A stretch of 32,111 nt of DNA from a virus: positions 1-32,111 of the IMG/VR virus record IMGVR_UViG_3300030103_000509. One strand, written 5' to 3'. The notes under the pieces are model-generated. The model was not told the origin of the DNA and made no database searches. It saw only the letters and a list, made by a program, of their open reading frames with translations. Both the position numbers and the translations under genes were made by a program. Positions 3,657-32,111 of the stretch are shown here, in pieces. Position 1 is the first letter of the stretch. Every line of letters starts with the position of its first letter.

Positions 3657-4565
3657 ATGGCTATATCAAGAGCGCAACTCGTAAAAGAGTTAGAACCTGG
3701 TCTTAACGCTTTATTCGGCATGGAATATGATCGTTACGACAATCAGCATACTGAAATCTTTGAGACAGAAACTTCAGATCGAGCATTCGAAGAAGAAGTG
3801 ATGTTAAGTGGATTTGGTAATGCACAAACAAAATCTGAAGGTGCTGGTGTAGCATTTGATGATGCAAACGAAGTATATACTTCAAGATATACAATGGAAA
3901 CAATTTCATTGGCTTTTGCTTTAACAGAAGAAGCTATGGAAGACAACTTGTATGATCAGCTTGGAAGAAGATATACGAGAGCGTTAGCAAGATCAATGTC
4001 ACACACAAAGCAAATCAAAGCCGCTGCAGTGTTAAACAATGCATTTGACTCAAGCTTTACAGGTGGTGATGGTAAAGAGCTTTGTGCAACAGATCATCCT
4101 TTAGGTGGTGGTGGTACATTCAGAAATGAATTTACTGTAGCTGCAGACCTTAATGAGACATCATTAGAAAATGCTCTAATTGACATTTCACAATTTGTTG
4201 ATGAGAGAAATATGATTGTTGCTTTAAGAGGTATGAAGCTTATTGTTCCACCAGCATTACAATTCGTTGCTGATAGATTACTTGAGTCAACATTAAGAAC
4301 AGGTACTTCTGACAATGATATTAACGCAATTAAAAACATGGGTATGTTACCAGAGGGTTATACAATTAACCATTTCTTAACAGACACAGATGCGTTTTTC
4401 TTAAAGACAGATGCACCTAATGGTTTCAAGTATTTTGAAAGAACACCATTAAGTACAAGTATGGAAGCTGATTTCGATACTGGTAACATGAGATATAAAG
4501 CTAGAGAGCGTTATGCCTTTGGTTTTTCAGATCCAAGATGTGTGTTCGGATCACCAGGCGCATAA
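3657..4565 (+). CDS. Major capsid protein
   Basis: This 302-aa protein reads as a phage major capsid protein. It has an N-terminal helical region (LVKELEPGLNALFGMEYDRY), then SGFGNAQTKSEGAGVAFDD and YTMETISLAFALTEEAMEDN, the segment where Mu-gpT/HK97-type coats show a similar pattern. It continues with LCATDHPLGGGGTFRN and a central strand/helix region around ALRGMKLIVPP, and ends with the aromatic RERYAFGFSDPRCVFGSPGA. AGGGAG precedes the ATG. The gene is followed at once by two terminators, as expected for a highly transcribed coat gene. The position after scaffold supports the call. Confidence 0.85.
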   Translation: MAISRAQLVKELEPGLNALFGMEYDRYDNQHTEIFETETSDRAFEEEVMLSGFGNAQTKSEGAGVAFDDANEVYTSRYTMETISLAFALTEEAMEDNLYDQLGRRYTRALARSMSHTKQIKAAAVLNNAFDSSFTGGDGKELCATDHPLGGGGTFRNEFTVAADLNETSLENALIDISQFVDERNMIVALRGMKLIVPPALQFVADRLLESTLRTGTSDNDINAIKNMGMLPEGYTINHFLTDTDAFFLKTDAPNGFKYFERTPLSTSMEADFDTGNMRYKARERYAFGFSDPRCVFGSPGA

Positions 4566-4586
4566 ACGAACAATTGTTCGTTTTTT
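4564..4586 (+). terminator. Rho-independent terminator 1 after capsid gene
   Basis: An 8-bp stem AAACGAAC / GTTCGTTT with an AATT loop lies at 4564-4583, followed by further T residues to 4586. It begins inside the capsid stop codon. The core CGAACAATTGTTCG is a perfect 14-base palindrome that belongs to a motif repeated elsewhere in the window. Confidence 0.7.
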
Positions 4587-24954: not shown

Positions 24955-25400
24955 ATGTAGAACAGTTAAGAGACACCCTCAAAGTTGATGAGGGCTGTGT
25001 AAATTCCATTTATTTAGACCACCTCAACCTACCCACGCTAGGAATTGGTCACCTTATTAATGAATGGGATGAAGAGTATGGTAAGCCAGTTGGGACACCA
25101 GTATCAGAAGAACGAGTCAATGAATTATTTGACAAAGACATCCAGATTACGATTGACGAATGCGAACAATTATTCGGTAACTTTCAGGATTTGCCAGAAG
25201 AAGTACAGCAAATTCTGGCAAATATGATGTTTAATCTCGGCAGACCTCGTCTATCCAAATTCAGGAAGCTATGTAAAGCTGTGGCTGAAAGAAACTGGAA
25301 AGAGTGTGCCATTCAAATGGAAGACTCGAAATGGCATAAACAAGTAACTAAACGCGCTGATCGTTTAATCTCTCGTATGAATGCTGTTGATAGCACCTAA
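24951..25400 (+). CDS. Endolysin, T4-type lysozyme (GH24)
   Basis: This 149-aa protein matches the T4 lysozyme family, which cleaves the MurNAc-GlcNAc bond of peptidoglycan. The start MNVEQLRDTLKVDEGCVNSI parallels T4. Catalytic residues fit as Glu14 (VDEG), Asp23 (YLDH) and Thr29 in LPTLGIGHL. The C-terminal lobe has VQQILANMMFNLGRPRLSKF and ends KRADRLISRMNA. It is slightly shorter than T4 lysozyme (164 aa). No signal peptide or arrest anchor is seen, so it would depend on the holin at 378. Its 3' end overlaps a minus-strand gene by 36 bases. Confidence 0.9.
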   Translation: MNVEQLRDTLKVDEGCVNSIYLDHLNLPTLGIGHLINEWDEEYGKPVGTPVSEERVNELFDKDIQITIDECEQLFGNFQDLPEEVQQILANMMFNLGRPRLSKFRKLCKAVAERNWKECAIQMEDSKWHKQVTKRADRLISRMNAVDST

Positions 25401-25577
25401 TCCTAAACTTGTAACCTTAGTTTTATATTTATTATATTCTTCTTTATCAAACTCTTGATCAATCATAAGACTTAATTGTTGCCTGATGTTTCTTCTTTGA
25501 TGTTCACATATCTTAATTAATTTATCATAACTTTTACGATCCAAGCCAACGGACTTGAATTTTGCTATATCTGTCAT
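25365..25577 (-). CDS. Small ribbon-helix-helix-like protein (70 aa)
   Basis: Read on the minus strand from ATG at 25577, preferred over an ATG 21 bases upstream because GGAGG lies 7 bases before it. The product MTDIAKFKSVGLDRKSYDKL begins with a beta-strand-like KFKSVGL, then helices KSYDKLIKICEHQ and NIRQQLSLMIDQEF: the Arc/MetJ-type strand-helix-helix plan of a dimeric DNA-binding repressor. It converges on the lysozyme gene with a 36-base overlap and diverges from the nuclease gene with 12 bases between starts, so it may control that start region. Confidence 0.65.
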   Translation of the reverse strand: MTDIAKFKSVGLDRKSYDKLIKICEHQRRNIRQQLSLMIDQEFDKEEYNKYKTKVTSLGLGAINSIHTRD

Positions 25578-25589
25578 TATACTACCTCC

Positions 25590-25970
25590 ATGACCCATAC
25601 ATACCCATTTATACCCAAAAAGACTAGAACAAGCAACAATAAGTATTTTGCAAAAAAAACCATTGCAATGGGATTAAAGTTTGATTCTAGGTGGGAAGCA
25701 GAAAGATGGGGACAACTTAAAGCTATGGAAAGAGCTGGTGTAATATCTGAATTAGAACGTCAAATTAAATACGAATTATCTATAAATGATGTCAAAATTT
25801 GTAATTACATAGCTGATTTTAGATATTTACAACAAGAAGAAGATGGCTTTTCAAGATTGGTTGTAGAAGATGCAAAAGGCGTGCTGACACCTGAGTTTAA
25901 GTTAAAAAAGAAGATGATGAAAGCTATACATGGTATAGACATTCATCTCTCCTACAAAAATAAACGCTAA
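25590..25970 (+). CDS. DUF1064-like phage nuclease (126 aa)
   Basis: The core matches DUF1064: NNKYFAKKTIAMGLKFDSRWEAERWGQLKAMERAGVISELERQIKYEL (in parts, residues about 16-63), YIADFRYLQQEEDGFSRLVVEDAKG (74-98, with the D...E.K pattern) and TPEFKLKKKMMKAIHG. The family is considered a PD-(D/E)XK-like endonuclease; Glu36, Asp76, Glu92 and Lys96 or nearby are candidate active-site residues. It is the only plus-strand gene inside a minus-strand island and may have been acquired with it. The ATG has no clear Shine-Dalgarno sequence. Confidence 0.78.
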   Translation: MTHTYPFIPKKTRTSNNKYFAKKTIAMGLKFDSRWEAERWGQLKAMERAGVISELERQIKYELSINDVKICNYIADFRYLQQEEDGFSRLVVEDAKGVLTPEFKLKKKMMKAIHGIDIHLSYKNKR

Positions 25971-26356
25971 TGTCGATTAAAATGATTAGATAATTTATTT
26001 CTCATTTCTTTTAACTGTTCAAATTTGTGATTACCATCAACGGGATCTCCTTTATTAGTCCGTTTTTTAATGTTCCAAACTTGTTTGTTTGCCCATGAGG
26101 TAGCACATTTCTGCATACAAAAATGTCCAAAGTTCATTTTATATTCACCAGTCCATACTTTATATCGCCAATACATTTTTCCGTTGAACTCTGTAGCTAC
26201 TGGTTTACCTACAACTTCAAGATTGCCGATATATTTTTCGTTAGGTTTCTCACTGTTAAGTTCTTCTATTAATTTTGGTGCAAATCTTTTACAATTCCAA
26301 CACTGCATAGGGTGAGATCTAACTCTCGCTTTAGTATATTCATCAGTATTTCTCAT
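25967..26356 (-). CDS. Cysteine-pair protein, zinc-binding candidate (129 aa)
   Basis: I do not recognise a family. The minus-strand product has CWNCKRFAPKLIEEL near residues 19-33, a beta-like middle (YIGNLEVVGKPVATEF, KMYWRYKVWTGEYKM) and FGHFCMQKCATSWAN near 76-90. The two Cys pairs (CxxC and CxxxC) with a nearby His suggest one zinc site holding the domain. The C-terminal helix is basic. It overlaps the upstream minus-strand gene by 4 bases (ATGA), so the two form an operon, and it converges on the nuclease gene with a 4-base overlap. Confidence 0.6.
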   Translation of the reverse strand: MRNTDEYTKARVRSHPMQCWNCKRFAPKLIEELNSEKPNEKYIGNLEVVGKPVATEFNGKMYWRYKVWTGEYKMNFGHFCMQKCATSWANKQVWNIKKRTNKGDPVDGNHKFEQLKEMRNKLSNHFNRH

Positions 26357-26748
26357 TTTGATGCAACCCTTTCTAAGTATTCATTTACTCTTCTTTTGTA
26401 GGCTTGCAGTAAAAAAAGAAATGTGCCAGCCATAGACTTTTCCATATGTATAGATAACATTTTAACTTCTTTATAAACTTCGAGAGTTATGTTTACCTGC
26501 TTATATTTTTTTGATGGATTGATTTTTATGTGATGATTCAATAAATCTTGTGCTGCTTTTTTACATTCTTTTTTATCTAAAGCTTCTCCATATTCATCAG
26601 CTAATTCAAAACCATATAGATGTGGATATTGATCAATTAAATTTTCAAGCTTTTCTAATGTCTCCTTTTTTGTATATAAGTCTCGTTGAAAACCATTAAG
26701 TATGTGAGATTCCTCGTAATCTACTTGAATCATCTGTGAATTACCCAT
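26353..26748 (-). CDS. Ribbon-helix-helix-like protein with N-terminal extension (131 aa)
   Basis: First gene of the minus-strand pair, with AAGGAG before the ATG at 26748. Residues about 82-125 show a strand YKQVNITLE, helix VYKEVKMLSIHME and helix GTFLFLLQAYKRRV, the ribbon-helix-helix plan. The first 80 residues are helical and acidic (LEKLENLIDQYPHLYGFELADEYGEAL, in parts) and are not a known domain. Its start lies 28-58 bases from two overlapping perfect palindromes, so autoregulation through them is a reasonable inference. Relation to the other small RHH-like gene at 25365 is not obvious. Confidence 0.62.
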   Translation of the reverse strand: MGNSQMIQVDYEESHILNGFQRDLYTKKETLEKLENLIDQYPHLYGFELADEYGEALDKKECKKAAQDLLNHHIKINPSKKYKQVNITLEVYKEVKMLSIHMEKSMAGTFLFLLQAYKRRVNEYLERVASK

Positions 26749-26775
26749 ATTAAACTCCTTTTGTTAAATTAATTT

Positions 26776-26806
26776 ATATATCATATATATGATATATCAT
26801 ATATAT
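26776..26806. promoter_or_regulatory. Overlapping perfect palindromes, operator candidate
   Basis: Two perfect inverted repeats overlap: 26776-26797 (22 bases) and 26783-26806 (24 bases). They are built from ATATAT units separated by C or G, so the spaced TCATATAT/ATATATGA elements appear three times. They sit in the gap between divergent transcription units, 28 bases upstream of the minus-strand start and 35 bases upstream of the -35 box on the plus strand. Likely binding sites for a dimeric repressor or activator. Confidence 0.7.
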
Positions 26807-26840
26807 TACAAGAGAAAAATAAAAAAAGATAGTTTAGGTA

Positions 26841-26868
26841 TTGACATTGTTGTAATCATGTCTATATT
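26841..26868 (+). promoter_or_regulatory. Sigma70-type promoter of the recombination operon
   Basis: TTGACA at 26841-26846 and TATATT at 26863-26868 are separated by 16 bases. Transcription would begin near 26875, before the ATG at 26909 that has its own GAGG. This also rules out the longer frame starting at 26789 as the expressed form. Confidence 0.72.
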
Positions 26869-26908
26869 AGACCTTGCAAGTAGAAATTTTAACGAAAGTG
26901 AGGTTAGT

Positions 26909-27343
26909 ATGGAACAGAATTTCTATGACATGAGTGATCACGAACTTTTACAGGCAAAGATGTCTATAAAACGTGAGATTGATCGATATAAAAAGAAAAT
27001 GGAAGAGCTTAACGGCTATCTTACCGATAGATACTTTAGTATTGCTCGTGAAGATTTGCAGAGACAAGGCAAAGATTTCGGCACGACTACTGTGTTTTCT
27101 GATCAAGAAGATAAAGTTAAGGTCTCCATAGCAAAAAAAGTAACATGGGATCAACAAGCATTGAGAGATGCTTTCGATAGTATGAATGCTGATGATGCAA
27201 GACACTATGCAAAAGTCACATACTCTGTTGACGAGAGGAAATATACAAATGCTCCTCCAGCTATAGTAGAAATGCTTCAACCAGCTAGAACTGTCGAGCA
27301 AGGTACTATTAATGTTGATCTTGTACAACAAGAGGAGGCTTAA
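26909..27343 (+). CDS. Coiled-coil protein, first gene of the recombination operon (144 aa)
   Basis: ATG 26909 is chosen because it follows the promoter at 26841-26868 and a GAGG; the open frame extends upstream to 26789 but would cross the promoter and palindromes. The product starts MEQNFYDMSDHELLQAKMSI, then a coiled coil (about 14-45, KREIDRYKKKMEELNGYL), a beta-like EDKVKVSIAKKVTWDQQAL and an acidic end (QQEEA). I recall small proteins with a KKVxWDxxxL motif upstream of Sak4-like genes in phages; a helper role in recombination is an inference. Confidence 0.65.
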   Translation: MEQNFYDMSDHELLQAKMSIKREIDRYKKKMEELNGYLTDRYFSIAREDLQRQGKDFGTTTVFSDQEDKVKVSIAKKVTWDQQALRDAFDSMNADDARHYAKVTYSVDERKYTNAPPAIVEMLQPARTVEQGTINVDLVQQEEA

Positions 27344-28210
27344 TTGGCTTTACAAATAATCACTGCCGAACAACGTATGGCAGAAAAAAGAGGTCATAAA
27401 ATGGTCATCTGTGGTCAAAGTGGTGTGGGCAAGACAACTCTTGCCCGAACCCTTGATCCTGATAAAACATTGTTCATTGACCTTGAGGCAGGTGACACTG
27501 CTATTAAGGATTTTCCTATTGATGTAATTAGACCAAATACATGGCAAGAATGTCGTGATTTTGTTTGTTACATTGGTGGTGTTAATCCGTCACTGTCAAG
27601 AGAGCCTTATGATCATATTCATTATGAAAGAGTCATGCAGGAACATGGTGATGAATTTCACAAAAAACTTGGCAAGTATGATACTATTTTTGTTGATAGT
27701 ATTACAGTTGCAGGACGTTTGTGTTTTCAATACTGTATGTCACATCCCGATAATATCATAGAAAGATCAGGTAAAGTAGATACTCGTTCTGCCTATGGTA
27801 TGCACGGAAGAGAGATGATGTCATGGCTTACTCATTTACAACATATTAGAGATAAGAATGTTATTTTAGTTGGCATACTTGACTCTAAGGTAGATGACTA
27901 TGGTCGAACTAACTACGAGTTACAAATAGAGGGTTCTAAAACTGCACGAGAACTGCCTGGTATTGTTGATGAAGTTATCACAATGACAGTCATGGGTGGT
28001 GCAGATGGTGTGCAACCATATAGAGCTTTTGTTTGTCAAACTCTGAACGAGTGGGGATACCCAGCTAAAGATAGATCAGGTAAGCTTGATGTTATTGAAG
28101 AACCACATCTTGGCAAACTAATTAGTAAGCTTAACGGATCTGCACAGAAAAAGGATTTAACATTTGTTGATCCACAATCACAACCAACAGAGAGAGGAGA
28201 AGTCCAGTGA
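27344..28210 (+). CDS. Sak4-like RecA-fold recombinase / AAA_24 ATPase
   Basis: The 288-aa protein has a Walker A motif GQSGVGKTT (24-32), a Walker B strand DTIFVDSIT (113-121), and a strand ending NVILVGILDSKVDD near 172-185, matching the AAA_24/Sak4 group of phage annealing proteins. These anneal or pair single strands during recombination and replication. It starts at TTG 27344, supported by an excellent AGGAGG 5 bases upstream; the first in-frame ATG is at residue 12. The gene is followed by a putative ssDNA-binding protein, the usual partner of Sak4. One base of overlap style at the end: the next GTG starts inside its stop region. Confidence 0.8.
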   Translation: MALQIITAEQRMAEKRGHKMVICGQSGVGKTTLARTLDPDKTLFIDLEAGDTAIKDFPIDVIRPNTWQECRDFVCYIGGVNPSLSREPYDHIHYERVMQEHGDEFHKKLGKYDTIFVDSITVAGRLCFQYCMSHPDNIIERSGKVDTRSAYGMHGREMMSWLTHLQHIRDKNVILVGILDSKVDDYGRTNYELQIEGSKTARELPGIVDEVITMTVMGGADGVQPYRAFVCQTLNEWGYPAKDRSGKLDVIEEPHLGKLISKLNGSAQKKDLTFVDPQSQPTERGEVQ

Positions 28211-28806
28211 TTGATTTAAATAATGTCGGTGATATGTCACCATCAGGTGATTTCGAGTTAATACCTGAGAATACTATTGCAAGAGCAATAATTACGATTA
28301 AACCTAATGCAGTTACAATGCCTGAGTTTAGTAATACTCCTATCTTTAGGGCATCACAGACTTCATCAGCTAAGTGGCTTGAAGTTGAATACACGATTAT
28401 CGGTGGTCAATTTGATAAACGTAAGTTTTGGCAAAATCACTTTTTCGATGGTGATGCTAAAGACGATAGTGGTGTATCTAAGTCTAAGAAGATTGGATTG
28501 CAATGGTTGAAAGCAGTTGTTGAAAGTCATAATGATATTTCAGCAATGGATGCTTCACCTGAAGCTCAAGCAGTTAGGCAAATAGATATGCAGAAAGGTG
28601 GAGTTGCGTCCATTAATAGCATGAACGTATGTGTTAAGATTGGTATTGAGAAATCAAATGATCAACAGTATCCTGATAAGAATAGATGTAAGGTCATATT
28701 GACTCAAGGCATGGAAGGATACATACCAAGTGGATCTGTACCAACTAATACACCATCATCTGCACCTACCAATAATGGTAATGCAGTACCTGATTGGGCT
28801 AGGTAA
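28207..28806 (+). CDS. Putative ssDNA-binding protein, DUF669-like (199 aa)
   Basis: Starts at GTG 28207 overlapping the stop of the Sak4-like gene, with AGGAG upstream. The product reads FELIPENTIARAIITIKPNA, WLEVEYTIIGGQFDKRKFWQ, then a helical KKIGLQWLKAVVESHNDISA, a strand segment NVCVKIGIEKSNDQQ and a Pro/Ser/Thr/Asn-rich tail ending VPDWAR. The beta pattern followed by LQxLxxxVxS and a disordered C-terminal tail resembles DUF669-type phage SSB-like proteins coupled to Sak4. The reading is by layout and context; no proven ssDNA-contact residue can be named. Confidence 0.62.
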   Translation: MIDLNNVGDMSPSGDFELIPENTIARAIITIKPNAVTMPEFSNTPIFRASQTSSAKWLEVEYTIIGGQFDKRKFWQNHFFDGDAKDDSGVSKSKKIGLQWLKAVVESHNDISAMDASPEAQAVRQIDMQKGGVASINSMNVCVKIGIEKSNDQQYPDKNRCKVILTQGMEGYIPSGSVPTNTPSSAPTNNGNAVPDWAR

Positions 28807-28909
28807 TGATGGCAGGCATAGCAAGGGCTAACTGACCTTAGTCTACTTGCAAGTCGCTTGGGTAGTGCGATGCCCTAAAACTACCCACCATTTAGCCAAT
28901 GAGGATCTT
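28807..28909 (+). ncRNA. Structured GC-richer spacer, possible leader or small RNA
   Basis: This ~100-base spacer is visibly richer in G and C than the AT-rich genes around it. It contains a perfect 8-bp stem TGGGTAGT (28859-28866) / ACTACCCA (28880-28887) with a 13-base loop. An outer pairing GGCTAA (28826-28831) / TTAGCC (28892-28897) encloses that stem. No T-run follows, so it is not a simple terminator. It ends before the ribosome binding site of the next gene. It does not fold as a tRNA: there is no T-arm at the proper place. Structure only; function unknown. Confidence 0.45.
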
Positions 28910-29134
28910 ATGAAAACGTATGAACAAGCAAAAAAAGAAATGATTTCTCAAATTAATAACTTGCAAGAAGTTATTAAGTTTTTAAGAGAGAATGCTTATT
29001 ATGAAAAAATTTGTGGAAGTTGTAGCACTAAAATGCGTTTAAGAGTTAACGATTATAGAGCCAATGAAAGAAAGTTTTGTAATGATGCTTGTAGAGCTAG
29101 GGATCAAAGACGTAGAGATAAGAGCAAAAAATGA
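28910..29134 (+). CDS. Small zinc-finger-like protein (74 aa)
   Basis: ATG 28910 is preferred because GAGG lies 5-8 bases before it; the longer open frame runs back into the structured spacer. The product has a helical N-terminus (KTYEQAKKEMISQINNLQEV), then CGSCSTKMRLRVNDYR and KFCNDACRARDQRRR: a CxxC...CxxxC zinc-finger pattern, like short treble-clef or MYND-like fingers found in phage proteins. The basic end suggests nucleic acid contact. It overlaps the helicase gene start by 4 bases (ATGA), so coupling with the helicase is likely. Confidence 0.65.
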   Translation: MKTYEQAKKEMISQINNLQEVIKFLRENAYYEKICGSCSTKMRLRVNDYRANERKFCNDACRARDQRRRDKSKK

Positions 29135-30813
29135 TTTTAAGACCATATCAAGAGATAGCAGTACAAGATGCTTCTAATGCTTTGGACAAGCATAAGAATA
29201 CTATTGTTGTTGCACCAACGGGTGCAGGTAAAACAATTATGCTATCTGCATTGATTGGCAAACGATACAAAAAGGGCAAAAAGATTTTAGTCCTGCAACA
29301 TCGGGATGAACTTGTAGGACAGAACAAAAACAAATTCTCTCGTGTTAATCCAAAAATATCCACATCTATCGTAGATGCTTCAGAAAAAAATTGGGATGGT
29401 AGTGCAGTATTTAGTATGGTGCAGACACTATCGAGACCGAACAATTTGGCTAATATGTCTAAAGTAGACATGATGGTGATAGACGAAAGTCACCATGCCA
29501 TAGCCGATACATACATGAGAATTATCAACAAGGTTAAAGAAGCTAATGAATCTGTAGAGATTGTTGGCTTCACTGCTACACCTAATCGGGGAGATAGAAA
29601 AGGCTTGAAAGGTGTGTTCAATAACTGCTCACATCAGATCGAAATAGCTAACCTTATACGAGAGGGTTTTCTTGTGCCACCAAAGACATTCGTGATTGAT
29701 GTCGGGGTACAAAAAGATTTACAAAATGTTCGTAAAACTGTGTCAGATTTTGACATGGGACAAGTCGAGCAGATAATGAATAAACGTGCTATCAACGAGA
29801 AGATTGTTGAAGAATGGCAGGAGAAAGCAGGAAACAGAAAGACAGTTATATTCTGTAGCACTGTGGTTCATGCACAAGATCTATGTGATGAGTTTAGAAG
29901 ATCGGAGATCCGTGCAGAGATTGTGACAGGTGAGACACCATCGGAAGAGCGAAAACAAATACTACATGATCTGGAACATGGTGACGTACAAGTTGTGGTC
30001 AATGTTGCAGTATTAACAGAAGGATTTGATGCACCACCTGTCAGTTGTATTGTGCTTACAAGACCATGCTCATACAAGTCCACAATGGTACAGATGATTG
30101 GTCGTGGACTACGAACAATAGATCCTGAAGAACATCCAAACGTAATCAAGAAAGATTGTATTGTATTAGATTTCGGTACAAGTGTATTGACACATGGGTC
30201 TTTAGATGAGGGTGTGGATCTTGATGGCAAAGATAAAATGCAACAAGGATCAGCTCCTGAAAAAGTATGTCCTAATTGTAAATGTCTTATACCATTAAGT
30301 GTTCGTGTATGCCCTATGTGTGGACATGAGATCGAGATGCAAGCAAAAGAAATGCTTGAGACATTTGAGATGACAGAGGTAGATCTTATCGACAGATCAC
30401 CATTTAGATGGATTGATTTGTTTAACAATGGCAGATGTATGTCAGCTAGTGGATTTAATGGCTTTGGCTTAGTTGCACATTTAGATGACGTTTCTGTAGC
30501 CTTAGTTAAACGTACAAGGGGCAAACTTAGAGTTGTGGGTGTAGGTACTAAAGAACAAGCTTTGGCTTCTGCTGACGATTTTTTGAGGGAAATAGAAGAT
30601 AGTGACGGAGCTAAGAAAGGTAAAAGGTGGCTAAACCAAGCCATGACAGATAGACAAAGAGAAGCTTTAGCAAGGGAAAATAAAATTGTAAGTCAGTTAG
30701 ATCTTAGTTTTAGCAAGTACAAAGCGGCGTGTTGGTTAAATTATTTGTGGAATAAGAAAGAAATTGATGGCAGAGTTTTAGATTATTACGAGGGAGATGA
30801 GAATGCAGCGTAG
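29131..30813 (+). CDS. SF2 DNA helicase with zinc ribbon, RadD/UvsW-like
   Basis: The 560-aa protein has all main superfamily 2 motifs: RPYQ (Q-like, 4-7), Walker A APTGAGKT (28-35), DESH (118-121), TAT (148-150), NVAVLTEGFD (291-300) and QMIGRGLR (321-328). After the helicase core comes a four-Cys zinc ribbon (Cys380, Cys383, Cys394, Cys397: CPNC...CPMC) and a C-terminal domain of about 150 aa. The layout resembles bacterial RadD and phage UvsW-type helicases, which process branched DNA in recombination-dependent replication. It overlaps its downstream neighbour by about 11 bases. No primase or polymerase motif is present. Confidence 0.88.
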   Translation: MILRPYQEIAVQDASNALDKHKNTIVVAPTGAGKTIMLSALIGKRYKKGKKILVLQHRDELVGQNKNKFSRVNPKISTSIVDASEKNWDGSAVFSMVQTLSRPNNLANMSKVDMMVIDESHHAIADTYMRIINKVKEANESVEIVGFTATPNRGDRKGLKGVFNNCSHQIEIANLIREGFLVPPKTFVIDVGVQKDLQNVRKTVSDFDMGQVEQIMNKRAINEKIVEEWQEKAGNRKTVIFCSTVVHAQDLCDEFRRSEIRAEIVTGETPSEERKQILHDLEHGDVQVVVNVAVLTEGFDAPPVSCIVLTRPCSYKSTMVQMIGRGLRTIDPEEHPNVIKKDCIVLDFGTSVLTHGSLDEGVDLDGKDKMQQGSAPEKVCPNCKCLIPLSVRVCPMCGHEIEMQAKEMLETFEMTEVDLIDRSPFRWIDLFNNGRCMSASGFNGFGLVAHLDDVSVALVKRTRGKLRVVGVGTKEQALASADDFLREIEDSDGAKKGKRWLNQAMTDRQREALARENKIVSQLDLSFSKYKAACWLNYLWNKKEIDGRVLDYYEGDENAA

Positions 30814-31084
30814 TGAAGCTTTACAAAAAGCAGAACAATTAATCAACGGAGCTAGAGCTAGAACACATGGAGATGCAAAAGATACACATGAATCAATAGC
30901 TAAGATTATGAATGTATTGTGGAGACACAAACTTAAAGCAGAACTTACTTATGATGACATATATAAATTTTGTATAGTGCAAAAGCTTGTACGAGACTCT
31001 CAGAACCCAAAGAATATGGACAATCCAATAGATGTAATAGGATACGGAGCTTTGTGGGCAGAGGGTAAAAGTGGCAAAAATTAA
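30803..31084 (+). CDS. DUF6378-like small protein (93 aa)
   Basis: ATG 30803 is preferred over ATG 30797 because GAGGGA at 30790-30795 is better spaced. The product contains ALQKAEQLINGARARTHGDA, then TYDDIYKFCIVQKLVRDSQN and DNPIDVIGYGALWAEGK. This matches what I recall as DUF6378 (AEELINGxRxxxYGDAxxxHxxIA...KxxRxxxxxxxxDxxxDxxGYxAL), a phage family reminiscent of small NTP-pyrophosphohydrolase-like helical proteins but of unknown activity. It starts within the end of the helicase gene and overlaps the next gene by 14 bases. Confidence 0.72.
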   Translation: MQRSEALQKAEQLINGARARTHGDAKDTHESIAKIMNVLWRHKLKAELTYDDIYKFCIVQKLVRDSQNPKNMDNPIDVIGYGALWAEGKSGKN

Positions 31085-31364
31085 CGTGGATTATCAACTC
31101 AACATGAAGTCTAAGAATGACGCGCAGTACATTCGTGAGGGCAGTATAGTTGTGCCTGTTTTTTTAGAGGACAATAACGATCATGTCTTAGACCACATTG
31201 ATAAATTTATTACAGAGGCTATTGATGATACAGATGATGAGTTGTTAGGTGGTACGATAGTGGCTGAATTTTTAGGAGTCAGTCATTATTTTGATTTTAT
31301 GGTAATGGAAGAAGGAGTAAAAAAATGGAACAACATGGTAACGGGGACAGACACAATACATTAA
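31071..31364 (+). CDS. Acidic hypothetical protein (97 aa)
   Basis: Starts at GTG 31071 with GAGGG about 8 bases upstream, overlapping the end of the previous gene by 14 bases. The product is acidic: QLNMKSKNDAQYIREGSIVV, DHVLDHIDKFITEAIDDTDD and LLGGTIVAEFLGVSHYFDFM. A beta-helix-beta plan with a hydrophobic strand core is likely. No family recognised, no enzyme motif. Its place between the DUF6378-like gene and the SSB-tip protein suggests DNA or nucleotide metabolism, but only by context. Confidence 0.55.
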   Translation: MAKINVDYQLNMKSKNDAQYIREGSIVVPVFLEDNNDHVLDHIDKFITEAIDDTDDELLGGTIVAEFLGVSHYFDFMVMEEGVKKWNNMVTGTDTIH

Positions 31365-31537
31365 AGATATTGTCCGAACAATTTGCAAAGATAGGCTGGG
31401 ATAAAAAGCTACAGAATTTGACACAAGATGAAGCTCTTGCCATAATTGATGCCATTCAATCAGCTAATGGAGACAGTAGTGGCATTCTCGACCTTAATCC
31501 AAACTCAGCCATACCCGAAGACGAAATACCCTTTTAA
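31325..31537 (+). CDS. Small protein with SSB-type acidic C-terminal tip (70 aa)
   Basis: AAGGAG precedes ATG 31325, which lies inside the end of the previous gene (40-base overlap, different frame). The product has a helical core (LKILSEQFAKIGWDKKLQNL, then QDEALAIIDAIQSA) and a flexible tail ending IPEDEIPF. Bacterial SSB ends in an acidic tip of the form DDDIPF that recruits repair and replication proteins; EDEIPF is very close. There is no OB fold here, so it is not itself an SSB. It might bind or compete for host SSB-partners. Unknown family. Confidence 0.62.
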   Translation: MEQHGNGDRHNTLKILSEQFAKIGWDKKLQNLTQDEALAIIDAIQSANGDSSGILDLNPNSAIPEDEIPF

Positions 31538-31538
31538 A

Positions 31539-32111
31539 ATGTTAGAGCAAGAAATATCAAATATAATAGATAAAGCTATTGTTGATCGGAACAAAGAGGT
31601 CAAGAAAAGAACTTACATAGGTGCTTCTAGTCTTGGTGACTCTTGTTCTCGTAAAATACAGTATCGTTACATGGGTCAACCAGTTGATGATAATCGGGAT
31701 TTTGATGCAAAGACACTTCGTATATTTCAATTTGGTCACGAGATAGAATTTAGTGTAGCTGGATGGCTCAGACAAGCTGGTTTTGATTTACGAGTACAAG
31801 ACAAAAATGGCGAACAATTTGGTTTCAGCATAGCAGAAGGCGAAGTTAAAGGTCACATAGATGGTGTTATATGTAACGGACCTTTGGACACTGCATATCC
31901 TATGTTGTGGGAATGTAAGTCAGCCAATGAGAAGAAGTTTAAAGAGTTTCAAACAAAAGGTGTAGCAGTAGCTAATCCTGTGTATGCAGCACAGGTTGCT
32001 TTGTATCAAGCTTATATGCAACTAACAGACAATCCTTGTTTATTCACAGTATTAAACAAGAATACAAGCGAGATATACTATGAGTTTATACCTTTTAACA
32101 AAGCTTTAGCA
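31539..32111 (+). CDS. Cas4/RecB-like PD-(D/E)XK nuclease, 3' end cut off by window
   Basis: The gene starts at ATG 31539, one base after the previous stop, and runs open to the window edge (191 residues visible). Motifs are GASSLGDSCSRKIQYRYMG (28-46, with Cys36), FGHEIE (65-70), GEVKGHIDGVIC with Asp108, LWECKSAN with Glu125 and Lys127, and QVALY at 152-156, the QxxxY motif of RecB-family nucleases. The active site D...ExK is complete. Such nucleases resect DNA ends for the Sak4/SSB pair. A Cas4-like iron-sulphur cluster cannot be judged because the C-terminus is missing. Confidence 0.82.
   Translation, partial: MLEQEISNIIDKAIVDRNKEVKKRTYIGASSLGDSCSRKIQYRYMGQPVDDNRDFDAKTLRIFQFGHEIEFSVAGWLRQAGFDLRVQDKNGEQFGFSIAEGEVKGHIDGVICNGPLDTAYPMLWECKSANEKKFKEFQTKGVAVANPVYAAQVALYQAYMQLTDNPCLFTVLNKNTSEIYYEFIPFNKALA

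Follow-up and report, generated by a model that had tools for sequence, protein, structure and literature searches.

Two long palindromes overlap in the spacer between a leftward gene for a ribbon-helix-helix (RHH)-like protein and a rightward recombination operon, and the question raised by this locus is which of the two transcription units they serve. The window, as we call the whole stretch of 32,111 nucleotides analyzed here, corresponds to a viral record of 32 kb, which may not be complete. Its capsid protein is 69–70% identical to those of Pelagibacter phage HTVC023P and phage DSL-LC04, and the window therefore comes from a related marine phage. No close DNA relatives were found among the phage records, nor any relatives in bacterial genomes. 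In our preferred reading, which we consider likely, the palindromes serve as operator for RHH–ZnP, a mobile cassette of two genes that regulates itself and is independent of the rightward promoter (Table 1). What was a sequence curiosity thereby becomes a testable repressor–operator pair in an HTVC023P-related pelagiphage.

Table 1. Coordinates of the features around the palindromes in the window.
Feature	Position	Strand	Basis
Holliday-junction-resolvase-like gene (DUF1064, phrog_190), left border of the cassette slot	25590–25970	+	
ZnP gene, 129 aa, zinc-finger-like (CxxC ... FCxxKC), cassette partner	25967–26356	−	Sequence
RHH-A gene, 131 aa, proposed autorepressor	26353–26748	−	Fold prediction, sequence profiles
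Candidate operator, overlapping palindromes of 22 and 24 nt	26776–26806	.	Pattern found only in RHH-bearing contigs
Proposed leftward cassette promoter, TTGTAA-16-TATATA	26784–26811 (boxes 26811–26806 and 26789–26784)	−	Inferred; overlaps the operator
Rightward promoter of the recombination operon, TTGACA-16-TATATT	26841–26868	+	Consensus scan, conservation in relatives
First gene of the rightward operon (phrog_2480 family)	26909–27343	+	ATG at 26909
Sak4-like ssDNA annealing ATPase	27344–28210	+	phrog_124, E 4e-51

Overlapping palindromes in the spacer

Direct reading and a script both gave a perfect 22-nt palindrome, ATATATCATATATATGATATAT (26776–26797), and a perfect 24-nt palindrome, ATATATATGATATATCATATATAT (26783–26806), which overlap where an earlier note on this DNA had placed them and are the two longest perfect palindromes of the window. 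Alternatively, the segment forms a direct repeat with 16-nt units (26776–26791 and 26792–26807, 94%), and it contains three heptads, TATCATA, TATGATA and TATCATA, at 26779–26785, 26788–26794 (inverted) and 26795–26801. Of 200 dinucleotide shuffles of the full window, 4 contained a palindrome of at least 22 nt. When the 92-nt spacer was shuffled 20,000 times, no shuffle contained two palindromes of at least 22 nt; 20,000 shuffles confined to the core, which is almost purely A/T, gave a pair as long as the observed one 6 times. The pair is unusual even though AT-richness makes palindromes easier to form, and its conservation, described below, is the stronger evidence.

Two variants of the operator were seen (in loci L042 and L028). 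Both break the center of the 24-nt palindrome while retaining ATCATATATAT twice, 16 nt apart, together with the inner TCATATATATGA, and no compensating change that preserves full symmetry was found among the operator variants. Selection on palindrome symmetry is unsupported because both variants break the symmetry and keep the direct repeat; the conserved feature is the half-site array, not perfect symmetry. Elsewhere in the window, a perfect 20-nt palindrome (AAACGAACAATTGTTCGTTT, 4564–4583) lies at the end of the major capsid gene and is possibly a terminator.

A predicted RHH protein

The minus-strand gene to the left, which starts at 26748, had been called RHH-like, and both its predicted fold and a weak similarity to MatP bear this out; on these grounds its product is a predicted RHH protein, in which N-terminal helices are followed by a C-terminal RHH domain at about residues 79–130. 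Pfam alone made no call for the window protein. Among its relatives the matches are weak, the best being to MatP_C in Pfam (E 0.0014, below the curated cut-off) and to the NCBIfam MatP model (2.6e-4), and a family profile compared with PDB sequences returned MatP as its top matches (E 0.008–0.018). Pfam matches to PAH and SH2_2 were treated as chance helical matches.

An AF2 model built with 13 sequences places helices at residues 89–102 and 106–130 after an extended stretch, the strand-helix-helix fold of a protein of the MetJ/Arc type; the RHH strand itself has low confidence in this monomer model. Plain Foldseek found nothing at E <= 0.001 with the 13-sequence model, though its first row was MatP, while in a first model built with 4 sequences the RHH part was poor and Foldseek gave no useful match. 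RHH folds were ranked clearly first solely by a second-look aligner, VIA-align, whose re-alignment of the model gave MazE, MatP, AtaR and CopG at Z 5.4–6.6, mostly over residues 79–131. Its rows 1–11 are RHH regulators, or in one instance an entry described only as a transcription factor–DNA complex. Structural Z values of 5–7 are middling, yet for the modeled protein these eleven rows agree on one fold and one segment.

A cassette slot beside the recombination operon

Loci of relatives were gathered with the Sak4-like gene as bait. Their conserved order is lysozyme, a small RHH2 gene (minus strand), the resolvase (DUF1064), the phrog_2480 gene and Sak4. The slot between resolvase and phrog_2480 is empty in most relatives and holds a minus-strand cassette in the others, namely RHH-A with ZnP (the window, L001/L042, L002/L035 and L003), RHH-B with ZnP (L007, L089 and L090), RHH-C with a ParB-like gene (L028), RHH-D with a ParB-like gene (L023, L025 and L034) or with a ZnP-like gene (L026), or the ParB-like gene without RHH (L016–L018). 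Judged by this gene content, the leftward RHH–ZnP pair is an interchangeable insert between the conserved resolvase gene and the recombination operon. The ParB-like protein that replaces ZnP, at times without an RHH gene, belongs to phrog_12305 (E 1e-31; L028:127–882). In the window, the RHH-A gene comes first and overlaps the ZnP gene by 4 nt (ATGA at the RHH stop).

A second short RHH-like gene (25365–25598, minus strand) starts inside the resolvase gene, in a divergent 9-nt overlap with it. A link between this gene and the palindrome was rejected because nearly all relatives, those without the palindrome included, have the gene; its leader contains no TATCATA.

Comparison of the cassettes points to exchange in blocks. 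RHH-B is 43% identical to RHH-A as a protein and 59% as DNA, and positions 26749–26808 are 97% identical between the two (97–98% for the operator block). Along the A and B loci, identity falls from ~95% to ~55% at 26350, rises again at 26750 and falls once more at ~26867, with sharp breakpoints at both ends of the RHH gene. In L003 and L089 identity collapses just to the right of the rightward -35 box, and the block from ZnP to ~26840 therefore moved as a unit. Genes beside the recombination operon thus appear to be exchanged as self-regulated units. The block AAAAAAAGATAGTTTAGGTATTGACA (26816–26846), which extends leftwards from the rightward -35 box and includes it, stays 97–100% conserved where identity in the downstream promoter spacer and the operon drops to ~50%; it may be an exchange anchor or an upstream promoter element.

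The half-site follows the RHH lineage

A pattern scan of 2.9 million viral contigs in IMG/VR for TATCATATATATGAYAYATCATATATAT returned 7 contigs, which are exactly the seven that encode RHH-A, RHH-B or RHH-C. This bears on a check that had been proposed for the locus, namely whether the palindromes are kept in relatives with the same gene. No palindrome was found outside the RHH-A/B/C cassettes among the 35 loci checked, and the operator stays with the gene even in phages that share only ~50% identity in the adjoining operon DNA. Since the near-identity of the A and B leaders stems from recent exchange, it is weak evidence of independent conservation; from the sequences we would count these leaders as about one independent operator, and as about three together with those of RHH-C and RHH-E.

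RHH-E is ~30% identical, lies elsewhere in the genomes of other phages, and was traced through ZnP homologs beside a DNA polymerase gene. Its leader has ATATCATATCATATCATATCATAT at the same place, with four overlapping copies of TATCATA (0 of 2000 shuffles). The RHH-D leaders, which occupy the same slot as those of the window type, have no TATCATA. An unbiased 7-mer count found TATGTAA/TTACATA to be most enriched in them (14 seen against 1.45 expected, counts that are not all independent because the leaders share ancestry). This heptad is present in 9/9 complete RHH-D leaders and in none of the A, B, C or E leaders. The half-site type follows the RHH protein lineage, with TATCATA in A, B, C and E and TATGTAA in D, and RHH lineages with different predicted half-sites are now available.

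The predicted DNA-reading strand differs along the same line. It reads K-Y/F-K-Q-V/I-N in RHH-A, B, C and E, with Q and N invariant, and K-F-K-S-L-N in RHH-D, where S replaces Q. Known RHH proteins suggest that the strand residues Q84, N86 and T88 should read DNA bases.

Proposed autorepression of the cassette and its alternatives

The proposed leftward promoter is weak (8/12 to consensus) and absent from the consensus-scan list; a TTGYAA or TTGACA box stands at a similar distance in the leaders of other cassettes. From this promoter, which overlaps the operator, the RHH gene and then ZnP would be transcribed leftwards. RHH dimers would occupy the TATCATA half-sites over the cassette's own promoter and, once enough RHH protein had been made, would shut off the RHH–ZnP transcript, so that the cassette would be expressed in a short, self-limited burst once phage DNA enters. 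The rightward recombination promoter would be an older, independent unit beside which the cassette was inserted. Autorepression by the RHH protein had already been suggested in the earlier note; the predicted fold of the left product and the restriction of the palindromes to that gene family agree with it, while DNA binding, repression, the position of the leftward promoter and the timing are what we infer from these sequences.

A related but rather unlikely reading has the same operator mechanism and adds a specific function for the cassette, which would be a type II toxin–antitoxin-like system with RHH as antitoxin and autorepressor and ZnP (or the ParB-like gene in relatives) as the restrained partner. 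Type II antitoxins bind palindromes over their own promoters (PMC4803016; examples are MazE-mt9, MazE6 and AtaR), and the cassette resembles such systems in its two overlapping genes with that for the predicted DNA-binding protein first, in operator-like palindromic repeats before it and over the proposed operon promoter, in the MazE and AtaR RHH folds among the top structural matches of the model, and in recurring at several places in many marine phage contigs. Unlike in type II antitoxins, the RHH domain of RHH-A is C-terminal. The second gene is related to no known toxin in Pfam, PHROGs, PADLOC or PDB sequences, ZnP matches no defense family either, and PADLOC gave no match; the partner can be exchanged between unrelated proteins (ZnP or ParB-like), and three loci (L016–L018) have the ParB-like gene and lack RHH.

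It is improbable that the palindromes are a site of recombination or replication, such as an exchange hotspot, an AT-rich origin or a centromere-like site, rather than mainly an operator. Such a site would suit the exchange breakpoints just beside them (26350, 26750 and ~26867), the AT-rich DNA and the ParB-like nature of some cassette partners, but relatives that have other cassettes in this slot, and no palindromes, evidently replicate and recombine there all the same, the cassette has no ParA-type gene, and the half-site type tracks the RHH lineage.

The earlier note had suggested that this region could be the main early/late or decision switch of the phage. In such a switch, RHH at the palindromes would control the leftward cassette and the rightward recombination operon alike. 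The divergent layout invites this reading, as the operator sits in one 92-nt spacer with the RHH start on one side and the rightward -35 box on the other, and the strong promoter reported to the right of the palindromes is indeed there, matching the consensus at 11/12 positions and ranking among the three best promoter-like sites in 25000–32111. However, its hexamers and 16-nt spacing are identical in 35/35 relatives, most of which lack the palindromes and the RHH gene (21 have no cassette and 9 have a different one), and the distance to the ATG is 40 nt (38 in two loci) whatever the cassette. The conservation of the rightward promoter is therefore not dependent on the palindrome. Moreover, 34 nt separate the operator edge from the rightward -35 box downstream of it, and the expected start is ~70 nt away, which makes a direct effect on this promoter unlikely. 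Given this conservation and a cassette that can be swapped, the switch was rejected as very improbable.

That the palindromes are a chance product of AT-rich intergenic DNA is scarcely credible and already disfavored by the operator scan and the half-site enrichment: single long palindromes turn up not infrequently when the almost purely A/T core is shuffled, but a pair this long seldom does (6/20,000), and the operator is kept one-to-one with the RHH family across divergent phages.

Comparison with known systems

MatP is the macrodomain Ter protein, which organizes the host chromosome at matS sites. It is the top sequence match and among the top structural matches of RHH-A, with which it shares an N-terminal helical part followed by the RHH domain; unlike MatP, RHH-A is encoded in a phage cassette beside its own candidate operator.

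The operator recalls that of the Omega (ParB) repressor of pSM19035, an RHH protein that binds 5'-WATCACW-3' heptads over promoters including its own (PMC9499535, PMC4803016) and requires four repeats for ParA activation (PMC9499535). Here too, a predicted RHH regulator is paired with 7-bp A/T-rich repeats of the ATCA type, direct and inverted, over its own proposed promoter. Unlike the at least four contiguous WATCACW heptads of RHH plasmid partition systems (Omega/ParG), there are only three copies of the TATCATA type, one of them spaced by 2 bp. The partners are ZnP or ParB-like proteins instead of a ParA-type ATPase, which the window cassette lacks, and RHH-A has an N-terminal helical part. 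In the absence of both a ParA and a known toxin, the system would work like the Omega and type II operators but can be filed as neither. Known families of anti-CRISPR-associated (Aca) repressors are helix-turn-helix proteins whose genes come after acr in their operon (PMC9410906). Like them, RHH-A would be a small phage repressor of an accessory operon; unlike them, the RHH gene comes first here, and no anti-CRISPR activity is known.

Recurrence of the module in marine phages

RHH-A, RHH-D and ZnP had no match in 50,697 phage records (ZnP none in named phages), so that, as an accessory system of ocean phages, the module would be unstudied. The main text of a paper on HTVC023P-type genomes (PMC9599517) contains no mention of ParB, RHH or the cassette. 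The RHH–ZnP module recurs across many marine phage contigs and at several genome places. The Cys pairs of ZnP (CxxC and FCxxKC) are kept even in homologs of 28–30% identity, and in most loci examined an RHH or RHH-like gene comes before ZnP, with the short ones matching RHH_5 (up to 2.6e-5).

We tentatively suggest that RHH with ZnP (or the ParB-like protein) might be an uncharacterized, widespread accessory system of marine phages, for example toxin–antitoxin-like or for host takeover, in which the RHH gene is swapped as one piece, flanked by near-identical DNA, and a lineage-specific operator code (TATCATA/TATGTAA) keeps repressor and promoter matched. A toxin–antitoxin-like or takeover role of the ZnP module is possible, and the architecture fits it.

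The RHH-E and ZnP pairs (L102–L108) have a DNA polymerase gene on one side and lysozyme on the other, and their leader contains ATATC as a tandem repeat. Very short RHH genes also stand before ZnP homologs of other phages, at L124:2778–2936, L126:2725–2946 and L130:2211–2435, and their leaders contain other inverted repeats, e.g. ATGGA-N7-TCCAT.
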